Shown here piece by piece: positions 49,802-58,660 of a stretch of 64,000 nucleotides of DNA. Location of the stretch: NCBI GenBank assembly GCA_903813345.2, contig CAIIXF020000003.1, positions 9,628,218 through 9,692,217 of the forward strand. Reading direction: 5' to 3'. The notes under the pieces were generated by a model, which ran no database searches, was not told the DNA's origin, and worked only from the letters and a program-made list of their open reading frames with translations. The stretch is from Owenia fusiformis (lineage: Eukaryota > Annelida > Polychaeta > Sabellida > Oweniidae). The translations under genes were made by a program, and so were the position numbers. Numbering within the stretch: the first letter of the stretch is position 1; each line of letters starts with the position of its first letter.

Positions 49802-52800
49802 TTAAACACCAAGTATATCCCTAATATCAGCTATCGTTTTATCATGTCCGAGAATTTGCATGTGGTCCACACCTGCATACTCAGTGTGCGTTATTTTCTG
49901 TTTCTGCTTACTCTGCCATCTCTTAAATCCATATAAGGACCTTTGGTTTACCGTACCATCACCATCTCCATATATCGTATCAGGTTGCCTATCTGGCCAT
50001 TGTTTGGCAGAGTATTTAAAACTTGCAGGTGTCTGAACCTTGATTCCATTCATGCAATGCACTTCAATACCTGGCGCAACTTCGGAACCCTGTAGTAAGT
50101 TTTTAGTGTCTTCTCTCATATGGAAGCCATTGGGGAATTTGATATCCTCGAAAAATTGTTTATAATCATGCACCGTGTAATTGGCATTGGGTTGGGAGAC
50201 CACAATTTCGTCCTTGTCCCAGAAGTTGTCATACGGGAGAAGCCAGGCGGAACTCGGCATGCTACGTTGTTCTGGGCGCACAGTGAAGGGGTTTACGACA
50301 AATAAACCCAAGTTATCACCTGGAAAAAAATAATGTAAATTGTGAAAACAGTTCTTTTATTCTCTAAGAAAGTGAAAATGTAAACATAATATGAATGTTT
50401 TTGTAAAATTTTGACAGGGATGACAAAACTAGAAAAAAAACTCCTGAGAGTAGCAAATCCCACTGAATAAAACAATTTTTATTAAATCACTCATCAATTT
50501 TAACATTACTTGATAGGTAGTAATATTGTCTCTAAACAAAATATACAGTTATGACATGGTGTAATACAAATGTTATAAAGTCCTTCTTATATTATTTCTA
50601 AAAAGGTTCAATGACAATGAGGGATCGGCCTAGAAAATTTGAACCAAATCTGATAATCAGTATTTGCCCTATCAAAAAAATAATATTTCTATGTTTGGTG
50701 GGATAATGAGAATGTTTGTCATGAATAATCTAAAGTTAGTTATAATGTGATAAACTAAACTTAAATAGACTTCTAATTTCAACAGTTATTCAATAACAAA
50801 GTTAAATGGTAAATGATGATTTCATATATAAGGAAAGAATGTTAATTTTTCTAAATTCCTAAGAAAGTTAAATAAGAGAAAGTATTCCCAAATTAAATTA
50901 TGATTATTCAAAAGAAGACATTCAAATTTGTCCAAAGCAGGGATAATGCTCATTTAGATTGATGAGCTTCGTTCTCCAAACCGAGAATTGTCCTTTTGAA
51001 ATTTGGACACCATCCATTAAAAATGCACATAAGGTTATACCTGAGGCCATTAGCCGCAGTGTCTTTGCAGCCCCACCCCATGGTCCAGATAAACTAATCA
51101 TAGAGGAGACAAATTTATCTTTCCAAGACTGCTTCTGCTGGTTCAAAAAGTATAACATCATCACATTTCCCATGCTGTGACATACAAACACAACTTTTTT
51201 GTTGTCATTTATTTTGTATGTATCTTCTACGAGGGCCTTAAACTTCACAAAGAAGTCCTGGAGCTCATCTGGAAATAGTCAATGTAAAAACTGAATGCAA
51301 TTTATGCAAAAATCTGGTCAAGTTCAAATGTTTTAAGGGGGAGGGGGGACTGGGGGAGTTACAAGAGCTTAAACAAGACAACAGCAACAATTGAATGTTG
51401 GGTAAGCGCTCAAATGCACATCTGATGGTTCATAACATAAATTTTTTTTGTGAGACATTTTTTGACTGCCTTCCCTTTAATTTATCTTTTAGAAAATACA
51501 TATGATTAAAATTAAGTTTTTTGGTAGTTTACTACTTACTTGGGGCTTTCCTGAAATCATAGGGGGCACCACGGATGCTCTTTCCCCGTTGATATCCAGC
51601 CTTTACAAGGGCATTGGCAATGGGTGAAAAGTAACTTGCTACAAATAAAACAGAAATGCAATGAGGTGTGAGCAACTTTTCCAAAACTTTCAAAAATATT
51701 TTTTGCTGAAACAAAATTCCTTTCATGTTCAAAATATTGAGTTCTGAATTTACTTATGAAAAAACATTAGATATTTTCAATGAGTATCTGCTGCTTAAGA
51801 GACTATTTATTTAATGTTTAGATCTAAATCTTATAGAACATTAAAAATGTATACTATTAAATAACAAGACAAACAAGTATTCACTTTTTTATCGAAAATT
51901 CAAAATAGCCATGAAGTTAACCCAGCATGCCCACAAAATTATCAGATCTTAGCACTAAGGGCGCTCTTGCATCTGTTGAAAATTTCAATTTGAACGGACA
52001 AGTGAATTCACTGGAGTTTAAAAACGAGGTTTGATTTAGGTGGCGCTGCACCTGCCTGCCGGCCCAGACAGACGCACCGTGGCATGCACACCCATCAGCA
52101 CAGGACGATGACAATATAGCATATGAAAAAGTGCAAAAAGCAAAGTTCTACTCACTTGGAGAAACCTGACTGGGATCAAGCCATTCTACAGAAGAAGTGT
52201 TCCCGAATTCTCGAATTTGGATATCAACACCCGGGGAGTTAGACGTCTTTCTACTAGTTTCATTGTACACAAGTCTGAAAAAATTATTTCAAGTTTATAA
52301 CATCACTAAAATTTACAGTTTCTATATTTTTTTTTACTGTGTAATTATAGTGGATTTCTTTCTAAAATGATTAAAAAATAATCCTATTTGATTAACAGAA
52401 TTATATTGGCATAACTTGTTTGTTTCGGATTTTTTTTCATACGGTTATTTACAAATCATTCTGCAATAAAAAGGCCATTGCACTGTGTGTGATATACTCA
52501 TAATTTTTTGGTAACTATTTGTTTTTCCTTTTTTTGTATCTCAATGGGAGTCAAAGTGACTTTCATAGTTTTCACAAAAAATGTTTGCATACCCATCATG
52601 TTTTACTATACATACTAAAAAAATCAAGTTTTTATTTGCCCAACCCTTGTAAAATGATATCTTCCTTGTTCAACAAAGGAAGGGAAATTCAGTTTTAGTT
52701 TCCTTTTATAATTCGAAGAAGGAAACTCCAACTTGTATAAATAAAGACACACATTTTAAGGAGAATTATATCACAAATACTGTTACAATAGTGGTTGTCA

Positions 52801-55800: not shown

Positions 55801-58660
55801 GGTTACACAATAGATACAACAATTTAGGCTGCAACAATTAACTTACTTAACAATTCCTTTCCCATATTTGGACTATAGGCTCAGAACTGTTTCAATGAAA
55901 CTGTATTTCCTTACCAACGATTATGTGAATTTAAAACATGCACAAACTTTACCTCAAATTGTCCACGAAACAGTCGAGGACAAACGGGCTAACCATTTCC
56001 AAATTCAACCACAGCGAGAAATATGCAGTTGTATGTTGACTGCACCAATAATGAATGACGCTAGGTTTTGACAACTTGGCGAAGAACTGTGATCCGCCAT
56101 CACCAGGCACTGAAATAAAGATGGCGCTTAACTAATTTACATAATCCACTCACCTCATGTTATCGACAAAGCAATCGAGAACAAAAGGAACAATGAGTTC
56201 AAGGTTAAGCCACAAGGAGAAGAAGTTCTTCGTCTGTTTTGTACACCAACGATGGATGGTGCTCGGTTTGTCTAATTTTGCGTAAAATTGGGTCCCTCCA
56301 TCGCCCGGCACTAAAATATGAACAAATAAGGACATATATACAAGAGGTTAGTAACTTAGTCTATAGTGATAAAGACACTTAGTAAAGCATAGTCAGTCTT
56401 ATGCATCGCCACAAAAAAGCTTGTTTGGTGCACTCATGTTGGGTCATATTTTTGACATGTTGCACTTGACTGTATTATTTGAAAAAAAACACATAAAGGC
56501 ATCCATGCAAAAATAGCTGAAAGTACAGTGAAACCTACATAGGAGTGAAAATTCTGGATAAACAATTCAAGCATTAACATGAAATCAGCACTAAATGGTA
56601 AGTTACTGCATTTGTTAATAAAAGTGCTACATATATGCATGGGGTTTCAATTAGATAACACAAACAATGAACCATCAAACCTAACAAAACCCGTCTGGCC
56701 CAGTTATCTACTCTCGATATCGTAGATCTGGGCCAGAAAAGGTCCAATGCAAAAAAGGGGGGATTTACTCAGGAAAAAACATGTCGCTGAATCATCACTT
56801 ATTATTCATTCCCTATTAGCCATCCAACCAAAACATTGGGCTACATGTAAACCCAAGTATTTATTTGAAATAAAGAGTACATAACTTACACGTAAATGTG
56901 GTGTTTTGTTTGTTATTTTGATGTTGAAATGGGCACAACATTTTGTCAGTTCTCCGCACCGAATAAAGTCACGTGATGTGACGTAACACGAGTATGACGC
57001 GATAATTTTTAAACTTTCATGAACGAAAATACATTTCCCGGGAATCAATACATTCCAAATATTACGATTTGTTCAGCAGATTTCTTATCAAAACGTAGAT
57101 TACTTTATAAAACAGACGTATCTGTGTTGTATTTAGACTGGAAAGAAATATGGTGGAAATTAAATACGATTTTTCAATTTGTTGAACTGACAGAATGTAC
57201 TACTGAACGAAACATGCAGGAGAGACTTCTCGATATTCTATGAGATCACAAACAGATTGCAGAAGAATTTCTCTTTTTGCTGCGTTTAATCGTTTCGTTC
57301 TTATTTATTAGCCATCATCCAGCGATGGAAACCTAATATAAATACAAAGTTTGATACAAGGAACAAACATGTAAGTGACTTTTATGATGTTTATTCATTT
57401 ATCAGCACGTATTATACATTGAAAAACCAGTGTGTTTTTTCCGGAGTAAATACCCCATTTTTTGCATTGGACCTTGTCTGGCCCAGATCTACGAGGTCGG
57501 GAGTAGATAACTGGGCCAGACAGGTTTGGTTACATCAAACCGGGTGAAACCCTGACTACATTAATTGTTAAAATGAATATTTTTGATACAATTTGACCCA
57601 TATGATAGGCCTATAAGCCCTATTAAAATTTTCATCTAATACTATGTTCATGTCACCTAATAGTCTCTAGTGCTGTTTTTTCAACGGTGCTTTTCTCTTG
57701 TGACTTACATGACTTGATAAAGCAAAGATATGATCAGCCAAGATGGTATGGTTCAAATAGAGTCACAGTATTGGAGAGGGATTAATCGAAATAGATTAGT
57801 TATAGCTCTTAAAGGGGCAATAAGGCTTGTAGAGAGAAAATAGGAAAATTTTAACTTTTTCTGAGCTATCAAGGCAACAGTTGGCTTAACATCTTCTTCG
57901 ACATACCTATTTTCTTAAAATGTATGGATAAACTATCAATTTCGGCATTAAAAAGTGTAAATTCAGTTCAAAGTTTCAAAAAGGGGACGTCCACTTTTAT
58001 ATTTTAAGATCCACCATGTTTCAAGAGGAATATAAGCTGAAATAATGATTATCTAGGGGGTTTCTTTGTAGAAAATAAAAATAGATGTTAGTCTTGATGA
58101 AATATCCAAACTTATATATATTTCGACACAGGTCCATGATCATTGAATGGCCCCTCTGCACTGCTTGTTGCACCTTTAAGCATAGCAACTTAGCAGTGCT
58201 AGTATTTAGACCTTGAGAGATCAGGGATTAAAACGGTTCTGGCCCACAAATTCTGACCAATCAGCTACATTGTTTTAGACCACACCCACACAGATGCTAA
58301 AATACGAATTAATACATTTTGGAAATAACAAAGCAGTAAATAAAAGCAACAATGTAAATATTAAGTACATGTTTTACCATTATCTCATATTTGCTAGCAA
58401 TATTTGTGAATATATGGATTATCTAACCGTTACATAATTTTATGAAAAACATTGAATCGATCAAAATCTCGAAATGCACCCTCCTCTTTTCAATGTATTT
58501 CATTACTAAAAACTCTCAAGATCTCATAGTTTTACTTACCTAATATGACAGGATTAGTAACAGCTCCCTTTTCAGTTGGTTTACCAAATATTTGTGTTGT
58601 AAATAATGAGAAAACCGTAAATAAAGATACGATTTTCAAAATTTCTTGCCGTTTTGCCAT
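49802..58660 (-). CDS. PLA2G15: Lysosomal phospholipase A2 / LCAT-like lysophospholipase, six exons, with alternative exon 2
   Basis: Secreted/lysosomal alpha/beta-hydrolase that deacylates phospholipids and transacylates ceramide at acid pH. Coding exons on the minus strand: 58660-58540, 56310-56154 (2a) or 56109-55953 (2b), 52274-52156, 51638-51540, 51268-51041 and 50319-49802. With either exon 2 the CDS is 1242 nt, 413 residues, essentially the usual family length. Signal peptide: about residues 1-26 (hydrophobic LKIVSLFTVFSLFTTQIFG). PGDGG oxyanion-side motif in exon 2; nucleophile Ser197 in VCHSMGN; Asp360 in YGDGDGTVN; His394 in GVDHMQIL. PWGG and the APYDFRKAP segment are also in place. 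N-glycosylation sequons occur at NETS, NTSS and NYT. All splice sites are canonical and in phase. The gene is head-to-head with AIP. Confidence 0.96.
50880..51000. repeat. Fragment of the TTAA-MITE family in PLA2G15 intron 5
   Basis: The words CAGGGATAATGCTCATTTAG and TTCGTTCTCCAAACCGAGAA are almost identical to the right half of 60340-60730. It ends about 40 bp from the donor of exon 5. Confidence 0.8.
52275..55952. other. PLA2G15 intron 2
   Basis: No further exons were seen. It includes an inverted-repeat element at about 52862-53091 (ACAGGGCTCT / AGAGCCCTGT), a weak inverted repeat around 53710-53980, and near 55595 a GGTAAC-GACC-GTTACC palindrome followed by ATGGCGGAC that opens only ten codons. 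The ORF 53628-53957 spans the weak inverted repeat and has no recognisable domain. Confidence 0.5.
52862..53091. mobile_element. Inverted-repeat MITE, about 230 bp
   Basis: The left end ACAGGGCTCTTGCCAGG and right end CCTGGTGAGAGCCCTGT are imperfect complements, and GCACCAC words occur near both ends. A fragment of the same family (TTTTAGACTGTG, GCACCACC) lies inverted at about 60255-60290. Confidence 0.6.
55953..56109 (-). CDS. PLA2G15: PLA2G15 alternative exon 2b (tandem duplicate of 2a)
   Basis: Also exactly 157 nt, with acceptor TTTATTTCAG and donor TTGAG|GTAAAG. It encodes VPGDGGSQFFAKLSKPSVIH, then YWC, then SLWLNLEMVSPFVLDCFVDN. By eye it matches 2a at 38 of 53 residues, with all motif residues and both cysteines kept and no stop or frameshift. 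The 44-nt spacing from 2a and the shared phase point to mutually exclusive use. Confidence 0.9.
56154..56310 (-). CDS. PLA2G15: PLA2G15 alternative exon 2a
   Basis: A 157-nt exon with acceptor ATATTTTAG and donor ATGAG|GTGAGT. It encodes VPGDGGTQFYAKLDKPSTIH, then RWC, then SLWLNLELIVPFVLDCFVDN. It carries the oxyanion-side Pro-Gly-Asp motif and two cysteines that are also present in 2b. It is upstream of exon 2b on the coding strand. Confidence 0.93.
56682..57532. mobile_element. Mutator-like nonautonomous element, 851 bp, perfect 9-bp target duplication
   Basis: The terminal inverted repeats are about 100 bp (shared word GTCTGGCCCAGTTATCTACT, then GTAGATCTGGGCCAGA and AAGGTCCAATGCAAAAAA). 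CATCAAACC flanks both sides exactly (56673-56681 and 57533-57541). A 9-bp duplication with long TIRs is the signature of Mutator-type elements. The interior holds a 74-codon ATG frame (57019-57243) of unknown origin. It lies in PLA2G15 intron 1. Confidence 0.85.
57019..57243 (+). other. 74-residue open frame inside the Mutator-like element
   Basis: It begins MNENTFPGNQYIPNI and ends RNMQERLLDIL, acidic at the C-terminal end. No family was recognised. It may be a captured fragment or chance. Confidence 0.2.

Follow-up and report, generated by a model that had tools for sequence, protein, structure and literature searches.

Tandem copies of exon 2 in a PLA2G15 gene of Owenia fusiformis, separated by a 44-nt intron and predicted to be spliced in a mutually exclusive manner

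The PLA2G15 gene found here appears to carry an old tandem duplication of exon 2, and its mRNAs are predicted to use either exon 2a or exon 2b under steric exclusion, a reading that we consider likely. The proposed mechanism is that the 44-nt intron between the two exons would be too short to accommodate both U1 at the 2a donor and U2 at a branch point for 2b, so that 2a-2b joining would be blocked. Frameshift and NMD would back up this exclusion, and exon 2b would be spliced solely from exon 1. The surveyed window is a stretch of 64,000 nt (G000:C3:9628218-9692217) of the 498-Mb genome. The exons were placed in it by open frames and splice sites, and the joined protein then proved collinear with the human enzyme. 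The features are as follows, in window coordinates.

58540..58660, minus strand: exon 1, coding part from the ATG, 121 nt, donor GTAAGT
56154..56310, minus strand: exon 2a, 157 nt, PGDGGTQFYAKLDKPSTIHRWCTKQTKNFFSLWLNLELIVPFVLDCFVDNM, placed by splice sites and open frame
56110..56153, minus strand: intron between 2a and 2b, 44 nt, GTGAGT...TTTCAG
55953..56109, minus strand: exon 2b, 157 nt, PGDGGSQFFAKLSKPSVIHYWCSQHTTAYFSLWLNLEMVSPFVLDCFVDNL, placed by splice sites and open frame
52156..52274, minus strand: exon 3, 119 nt
51540..51638, minus strand: exon 4, 99 nt
51041..51268, minus strand: exon 5, 228 nt, with CHSMGN as the catalytic serine region by alignment with 4x90
49802..50319, minus strand: exon 6 to the stop codon, 518 nt

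The introns measured 2229, 44, 3678, 517, 271 and 721 nt in order. Exon 1, which encodes an N-terminal hydrophobic stretch (judged by eye), joins in frame to either 2a or 2b and then to exon 3, and each single-inclusion isoform has 413 aa. The initial annotation had identified the gene as a lysosomal phospholipase A2 (PLA2G15/LPLA2), and this identification was upheld. The closest solved structure was human group XV phospholipase A2 (4x90), which aligned with residues 36-411 of the 2a isoform (E 2.5e-124), and LCAT ranked behind it (E 2.9e-91). Both isoforms matched the Pfam LCAT domain PF02450 (267.9 and 269.3 bits). GDGDGTVN and VDHMQ in exon 6 aligned with the catalytic Asp and His regions of 4x90. 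The LCAT-family domain, the Ser-Asp-His triad regions and Asp13 were all present.

Two repeats were observed elsewhere in the window. Intron 1 contains, upstream of exon 2a, an inverted repeat whose ends (tctggcccag... and ...gtagatctgggccaga) lie approximately 830 bp apart by eye (~57520-56692, minus strand) and which resembles a fold-back or MITE insertion. A tandem repeat at 61887-61024 (minus strand) has more than one frame open, with recurring words similar to one 14-residue protein sequence.

The coordinates, the equal lengths of 157 nt, the GT/AG sites, the equal phase and the 44-nt intron given for the two exons in the initial annotation were all exact. Exon 2a is preceded by TTTTAG, ends in GAG and has the donor GTGAGT, while exon 2b is preceded by TTTCAG, ends in GAG and has the donor GTAAAG. 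The copies are identical at 101 of 157 nt (64%) and at 36 of the 51 complete codons at the residue level. The agreement of 38 of 53 residues counted by eye in the annotation corresponds to these 36 residues plus the two split codons, which give V before and R after in both copies. Of the four possible exon combinations, an open frame was kept only by the two with a single exon; with both exons included a stop followed after 95 residues, and with both skipped after 69, as expected from the earlier statement that including both or neither breaks the frame. Reading through past either donor led to an immediate stop, the open frames ending in ...NMR and ...NLR. The features that define a mutually exclusive pair, namely neighbouring homologous exons that are similar in length and compatible in splice sites and phase, were all found here. 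A whole-genome search with the exon 2a protein listed five matches: the two exons 2a and 2b themselves and three others with E values of 0.059 or higher. Neither a third copy of exon 2 nor a second LPLA2 gene was found among the best-scoring candidates from the LCAT profile and the exon 2a protein.

The threshold in use for steric interference is a donor-to-branch-point distance of approximately 50 nt (PMC5740500, PMC7969005). Because the whole 2a-2b intron has 44 nt, any branch point inside it would lie less than 50 nt from the donor, and the pair falls by this length in the steric subtype (under ~50 nt). Candidate branch points were scored with an ad hoc matrix over up to 110 nt per acceptor, so that the best scores favour long introns. 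The word AGTTAAG, named in the initial annotation as the best in this intron, is indeed present with its adenines ~25 nt in, but the top rank inside the intron went to another weak word (2.16) at a distance of 16 nt from the donor. Upstream of exons 2a, 4, 5 and 6, the best words scored 4.7-5.3, and low values were also seen for exon 3 (3.64) and GSK3 exon a (3.42). Better words were found inside exon 2a; one of them, GATAAC (3.96), precedes the 2a donor by seven bases, and its use as the 2b branch point would make 2a-2b joining geometrically impossible. The scan is suggestive only, in favour of a block to 2a-2b joining.

The length of ordinary introns in this genome was approximated by the gaps between neighbouring profile hits whose profile positions run on from one another. 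The minimum gap was 126 nt for kinases and myosins (44 pairs), 118 nt for kinesins (38 pairs), 132 nt for p450 (14 pairs), 297 nt for AAA (5 pairs), 227 nt for ion channels (10 pairs) and 110 nt for SNF (21 pairs). All 132 sampled exon-exon gaps were thus approximately 110 nt or more, compared with 44 nt here. The survey used rows of profile hits chosen by eye, which by hand count amounted to 292 of the 753 rows listed. A frameshifted hit gave one p450 pair a negative gap, and its removal reduced the total from 133 to 132; tandem pairs of the same profile were deliberately excluded. At least two contiguous kinase pairs on C10 were omitted, with gaps of 225 and 1771 nt, neither of which is short. 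Exact modelling of six short gaps gave best models of 110, 123, 126 and 133 nt for four of them, two of which also had lower-scoring alternatives of 92 and 72 nt, and no model for the other two. No short intron absorbed in a profile hit was found by eye in four hits with internal stops, and the ABC transporter profile search yielded no usable pair. Introns of 40-50 nt are spliced in some animals. The 44 nt of the 2a-2b intron, set against these 132 gaps, agree with the mutually exclusive exons proposed in the initial annotation.

The arrangement in PLA2G15 is not a one-off, as it was also present in a GSK3 gene and in a Kv4-type channel gene. The homologous exon pairs found elsewhere in the genome are as follows.

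G000:C10:2256899-2257029 and 2257077-2257207 (L008): GSK3 tandem exons for the HRD to DFG segment, 131/131 nt, 47-nt intron
G000:C5:18145557-18145719 and 18145770-18145932 (L020): Kv4/Shal-type channel tandem S6 exons, 163/163 nt, 50-nt intron
G000:C8:32026323-32026460 and 32026686-32026823 (L021): voltage-gated cation channel exons, 138/138 nt, 225-nt intron
G000:C2, L009, from ~3074 and ~6710: homologous exons of an apparent COQ2 gene, located by UbiA matches and by eye

The GSK3 pair was first met in the kinase profile search as two hits of one and the same profile stretch, 28 nt apart. Its copies share 35 of 43 residues, with saturated silent sites and pN of 0.115, and the other exons of the gene match human GSK3B. 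The copies of the Kv4-type pair, closest to KCND2, share 48 of 54 residues (pS 0.757, pN 0.076). None of the exon lengths of 157, 131 and 163 nt is divisible by three. The GSK3 and Kv4-type pairs were met by chance among the eight multi-exon families surveyed. Since the design with 44-50 nt recurs and the sampled ordinary gaps are at least ~110 nt, the best mechanism for the exclusivity of 2a and 2b is an intron whose length does not permit splicing.

A different account would attribute the exclusivity to regulated choice of splice sites or to RNA structure, with NMD clearing errors and the short intron not being the cause. The early stop on double inclusion agrees with such a view, as do the two pairs with wide spacing. 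The cation channel exons, with 37 of 46 residues identical, are separated by 225 nt, and the COQ2 exons, 47% identical over 51 residues, lie ~3.5 kb apart; the COQ2 assignment rests on weak UbiA matches (42.1 bits for one exon, and for the other 29.9 bits, which is under the cut-off) and on the sequence by eye. These spacings indicate that steric exclusion is not the sole mode in this genome and that other mechanisms exist here. However, the introns of 44, 47 and 50 nt are all much shorter than any ordinary gap in the sample. Local RNA folding was also ordinary: in the 481 nt around 2a and 2b no unusual stability was detected (z -1.04, 15 of 100 shuffles as stable), a measure of local structure. 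For lack of a signal in this stretch, local RNA structure was set aside as the cause. We consider this different account unlikely and retain steric exclusion by the 44-nt intron as the preferred reading.

Several repeated structures were encountered beside these pairs. A myosin gene (G000:C9:37986009-37994334, L014) has 12 listed tandem matches to the same stretch of the head domain (profile ~18-84), and the region is possibly a large cluster of alternative exons, to be taken as a candidate. Downstream of the exon pair in the GSK3 gene (L012:2075-2709), a 94-bp unit is repeated in 6.8 copies that are 98% alike. The unit consists of an acceptor and the first part of an exon, and the last copy runs into the full exon; the array may form a row of decoy acceptors. 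In a kinesin gene (G000:C2, L015:246-3089), a 159-bp unit consisting of an acceptor and most of an exon recurs in 17.9 copies that are 97% alike; those upstream copies that were read reach the stop KNKPVAL*, and the last one continues past it. Both arrays were rejected as exon clusters, being near-identical tandem repeats of an acceptor and a partial exon.

The divergence between 2a and 2b was used to test for selection, as the initial annotation had proposed with a dN/dS comparison. The 56 nucleotide differences are distributed as 13, 9 and 34 over the three codon positions. Silent sites were saturated (pS 1.03, with 11 of 12 fourfold-degenerate codons differing) and pN was 0.198, pointing to purifying selection on both copies. 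Exon 2a was taken as the starting point of 20000 simulated runs in which 56 differences were likewise introduced and every change was treated as free. The mean identity was 18 of 51 residues and the maximum 28, never reaching 36, and 18% of the runs were stop-free. As this simulation treats every change as free, another was added in which one copy accepted silent changes only and the other was neutral, with six divergence times and 12000 runs. In none of the 12000 runs were 36 or more identical residues combined with 34 or more third-position differences and the absence of a stop. Because silent sites are saturated, pN is 0.20 and the simulations with one neutral copy never fit, both copies were kept by selection and, for the greater part of the time since the duplication, maintained as protein. 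The data may still be compatible with a very recent loss in one copy.

These results bear on whether one of the two exons could be a relic or an unused exon, with a single copy spliced into mRNA. The 2b donor (GTAAAG) is less consensus-like and its intron has no good branch word, and very recent disuse would be traceless. Against this, both copies have retained an open frame, their splice sites and their protein sequence despite saturated silent changes, a neutral copy was rejected in every run of the simulation, and the two are equally near human LPLA2 (27 and 28 of 51 residues). We regard a relic as quite improbable. The copies are closer to each other (36 residues) than to the human enzyme, and these identities by themselves fit a duplication of exon 2 that would postdate the split from the vertebrate line.

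It is highly improbable that 2a and 2b belong to separate transcripts with alternative promoters and their own first exons: the 2229-nt intron 1 could house another first exon, but only 44 nt separates the exons and both acceptors fit exon 1. An assembly artefact or a collapse of alleles or paralogues has next to no probability: nothing was found in its favour, the copies are just 64% identical in DNA, and the searches with the LCAT profile and the exon protein, within their limits, revealed no additional copy of the gene.

With the two exons read as sterically exclusive alternatives, the position of their differences indicates what the isoforms would change. Residues were numbered as in LPLA2, anchored on Asp13, Cys32 and Cys56, which are kept in both copies. 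The 15 differences lie at residues 16, 19, 23, 27, 30, 33, 34, 35, 37, 38, 39, 48, 49, 50 and 61. Eight of them are in 27-39 and three in 48-50, placing 11 of the 15 in the membrane-binding domain, and none is in residues 40-47 and 51-60 (18 residues). The segment does carry the PGD motif and the two cysteines noted in the initial annotation. The accompanying expectation that the isoforms would differ near the active site was not borne out, as the motif and the cysteines are identical in 2a and 2b and the majority of differences concern the membrane-binding domain. Asp13, which in human LPLA2 influences the pH profile and acyl selectivity (PMC6027918), is likewise unchanged.

In LCAT, the ligand groove of the membrane-binding domain is described as formed by the b1-b2 loop, helices a1-a2 and the Cys50-Cys74 disulfide, with Met49, Leu68, Pro69 and Leu70 among the residues of the hydrophobic cleft (PMC6277198). 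The Y51S/G71I variant weakened HDL binding, in agreement with earlier work on Trp48, Leu70 and the analogous LPLA2 positions (PMC6277198). The same report pairs LPLA2 S33 and I53 with LCAT Y51 and G71, which gives an offset of +18. By this offset, LCAT Trp48 corresponds to LPLA2 30 (Arg in 2a, Tyr in 2b), Tyr51 to 33 (Thr in 2a, Ser in 2b), Leu68 to 50 (Val in 2a, Ser in 2b) and Leu70 to 52 (the same in both). Because 11 of the 15 differences fall in the membrane-binding domain, the isoforms should differ in membrane docking. We infer a common fold and catalytic centre with altered docking, and hence different membranes or lipids bound.

If both forms are made, one lysosomal phospholipase gene would yield two enzymes that share a catalytic centre and differ in their membrane-binding surfaces, which would amount to a swap experiment by nature on the membrane-binding domain of LPLA2/LCAT. 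A broader reading is that such pairs form a class born mutually exclusive, in which PLA2G15 represents a membrane-docking switch. A tandem duplication would leave an intron of ~44-50 nt, below the splicing minimum of the species, and the copies would be unjoinable and free to diverge. The PLA2G15 pair, the HRD-DFG exons of GSK3 and the S6 exons of the Kv4-type channel would be three cases, and as the last two were chance finds, many more would be expected. We offer this tentatively, as a proposal that falls somewhat short of an even chance. If it is true, PLA2G15 would possess a docking switch for lysosomal lipid turnover. The occurrence of the 44-50-nt design in unrelated genes makes it now testable whether intron length at duplication suffices for mutual exclusivity.

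The gene conserves the triad regions, Asp13 and the Cys32-Cys56 pair of human PLA2G15/LPLA2 (4x90), whereas the human structure has a single version of the exon-2 segment and the gene here encodes two. Mutually exclusive exons that act by steric hindrance are established elsewhere. Of 629 human clusters, 57 showed potential steric interference with a donor-branch point distance below 50 bp (PMC5740500). Exons 4a/4b of OGDH are experimentally proven to be exclusive by steric hindrance (PMC7969005), and Dscam exon 17 is a further reported example. The PLA2G15 pair resembles them in its adjacent homologous exons, a donor and putative branch point too close together and the frameshift on double inclusion. 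It differs in that OGDH, in the intron between its two exons, uses branch points at 25-41 nt from the donor, whereas the entire intron has 44 nt here, and in that exclusivity was proven by experiment for OGDH, whereas it is predicted from sequence for the PLA2G15 pair.

Exons 6a/6e of coq-2 are described in nematodes, flatworms, annelids and molluscs, and their exclusive splicing in annelids was reported from genome and RNA-seq analysis (PMC7434440). Like that pair, 2a/2b would swap a functional segment of an enzyme, and the matching COQ2 pair in this genome, which resembles the one in animals that make rhodoquinone, shows the Phe-to-Leu difference named in that report (TFNWG versus TLNWG). 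In contrast to 2a/2b, the COQ2 exons are widely spaced here, concern another gene and another chemistry, and have RNA-seq support in that report. The muscle myosin heavy chain gene has seven exon clusters in the annelid Capitella (PMC3912159). There, as in PLA2G15, tandem alternative exons encode variants of one part of a fold, although that is a different gene with several clusters, some of more than two exons.

No earlier report of the PLA2G15 2a/2b pair or of the GSK3 exon pair was found among the listed titles and abstract openings of the open-licence literature. The 2a/2b pair is a well-founded sequence prediction and one of three pairs with 44-50-nt introns found in the genome. Mutually exclusive exons of the steric kind are known; the gene and the repeated 44-50-nt design are, as far as searched, new.
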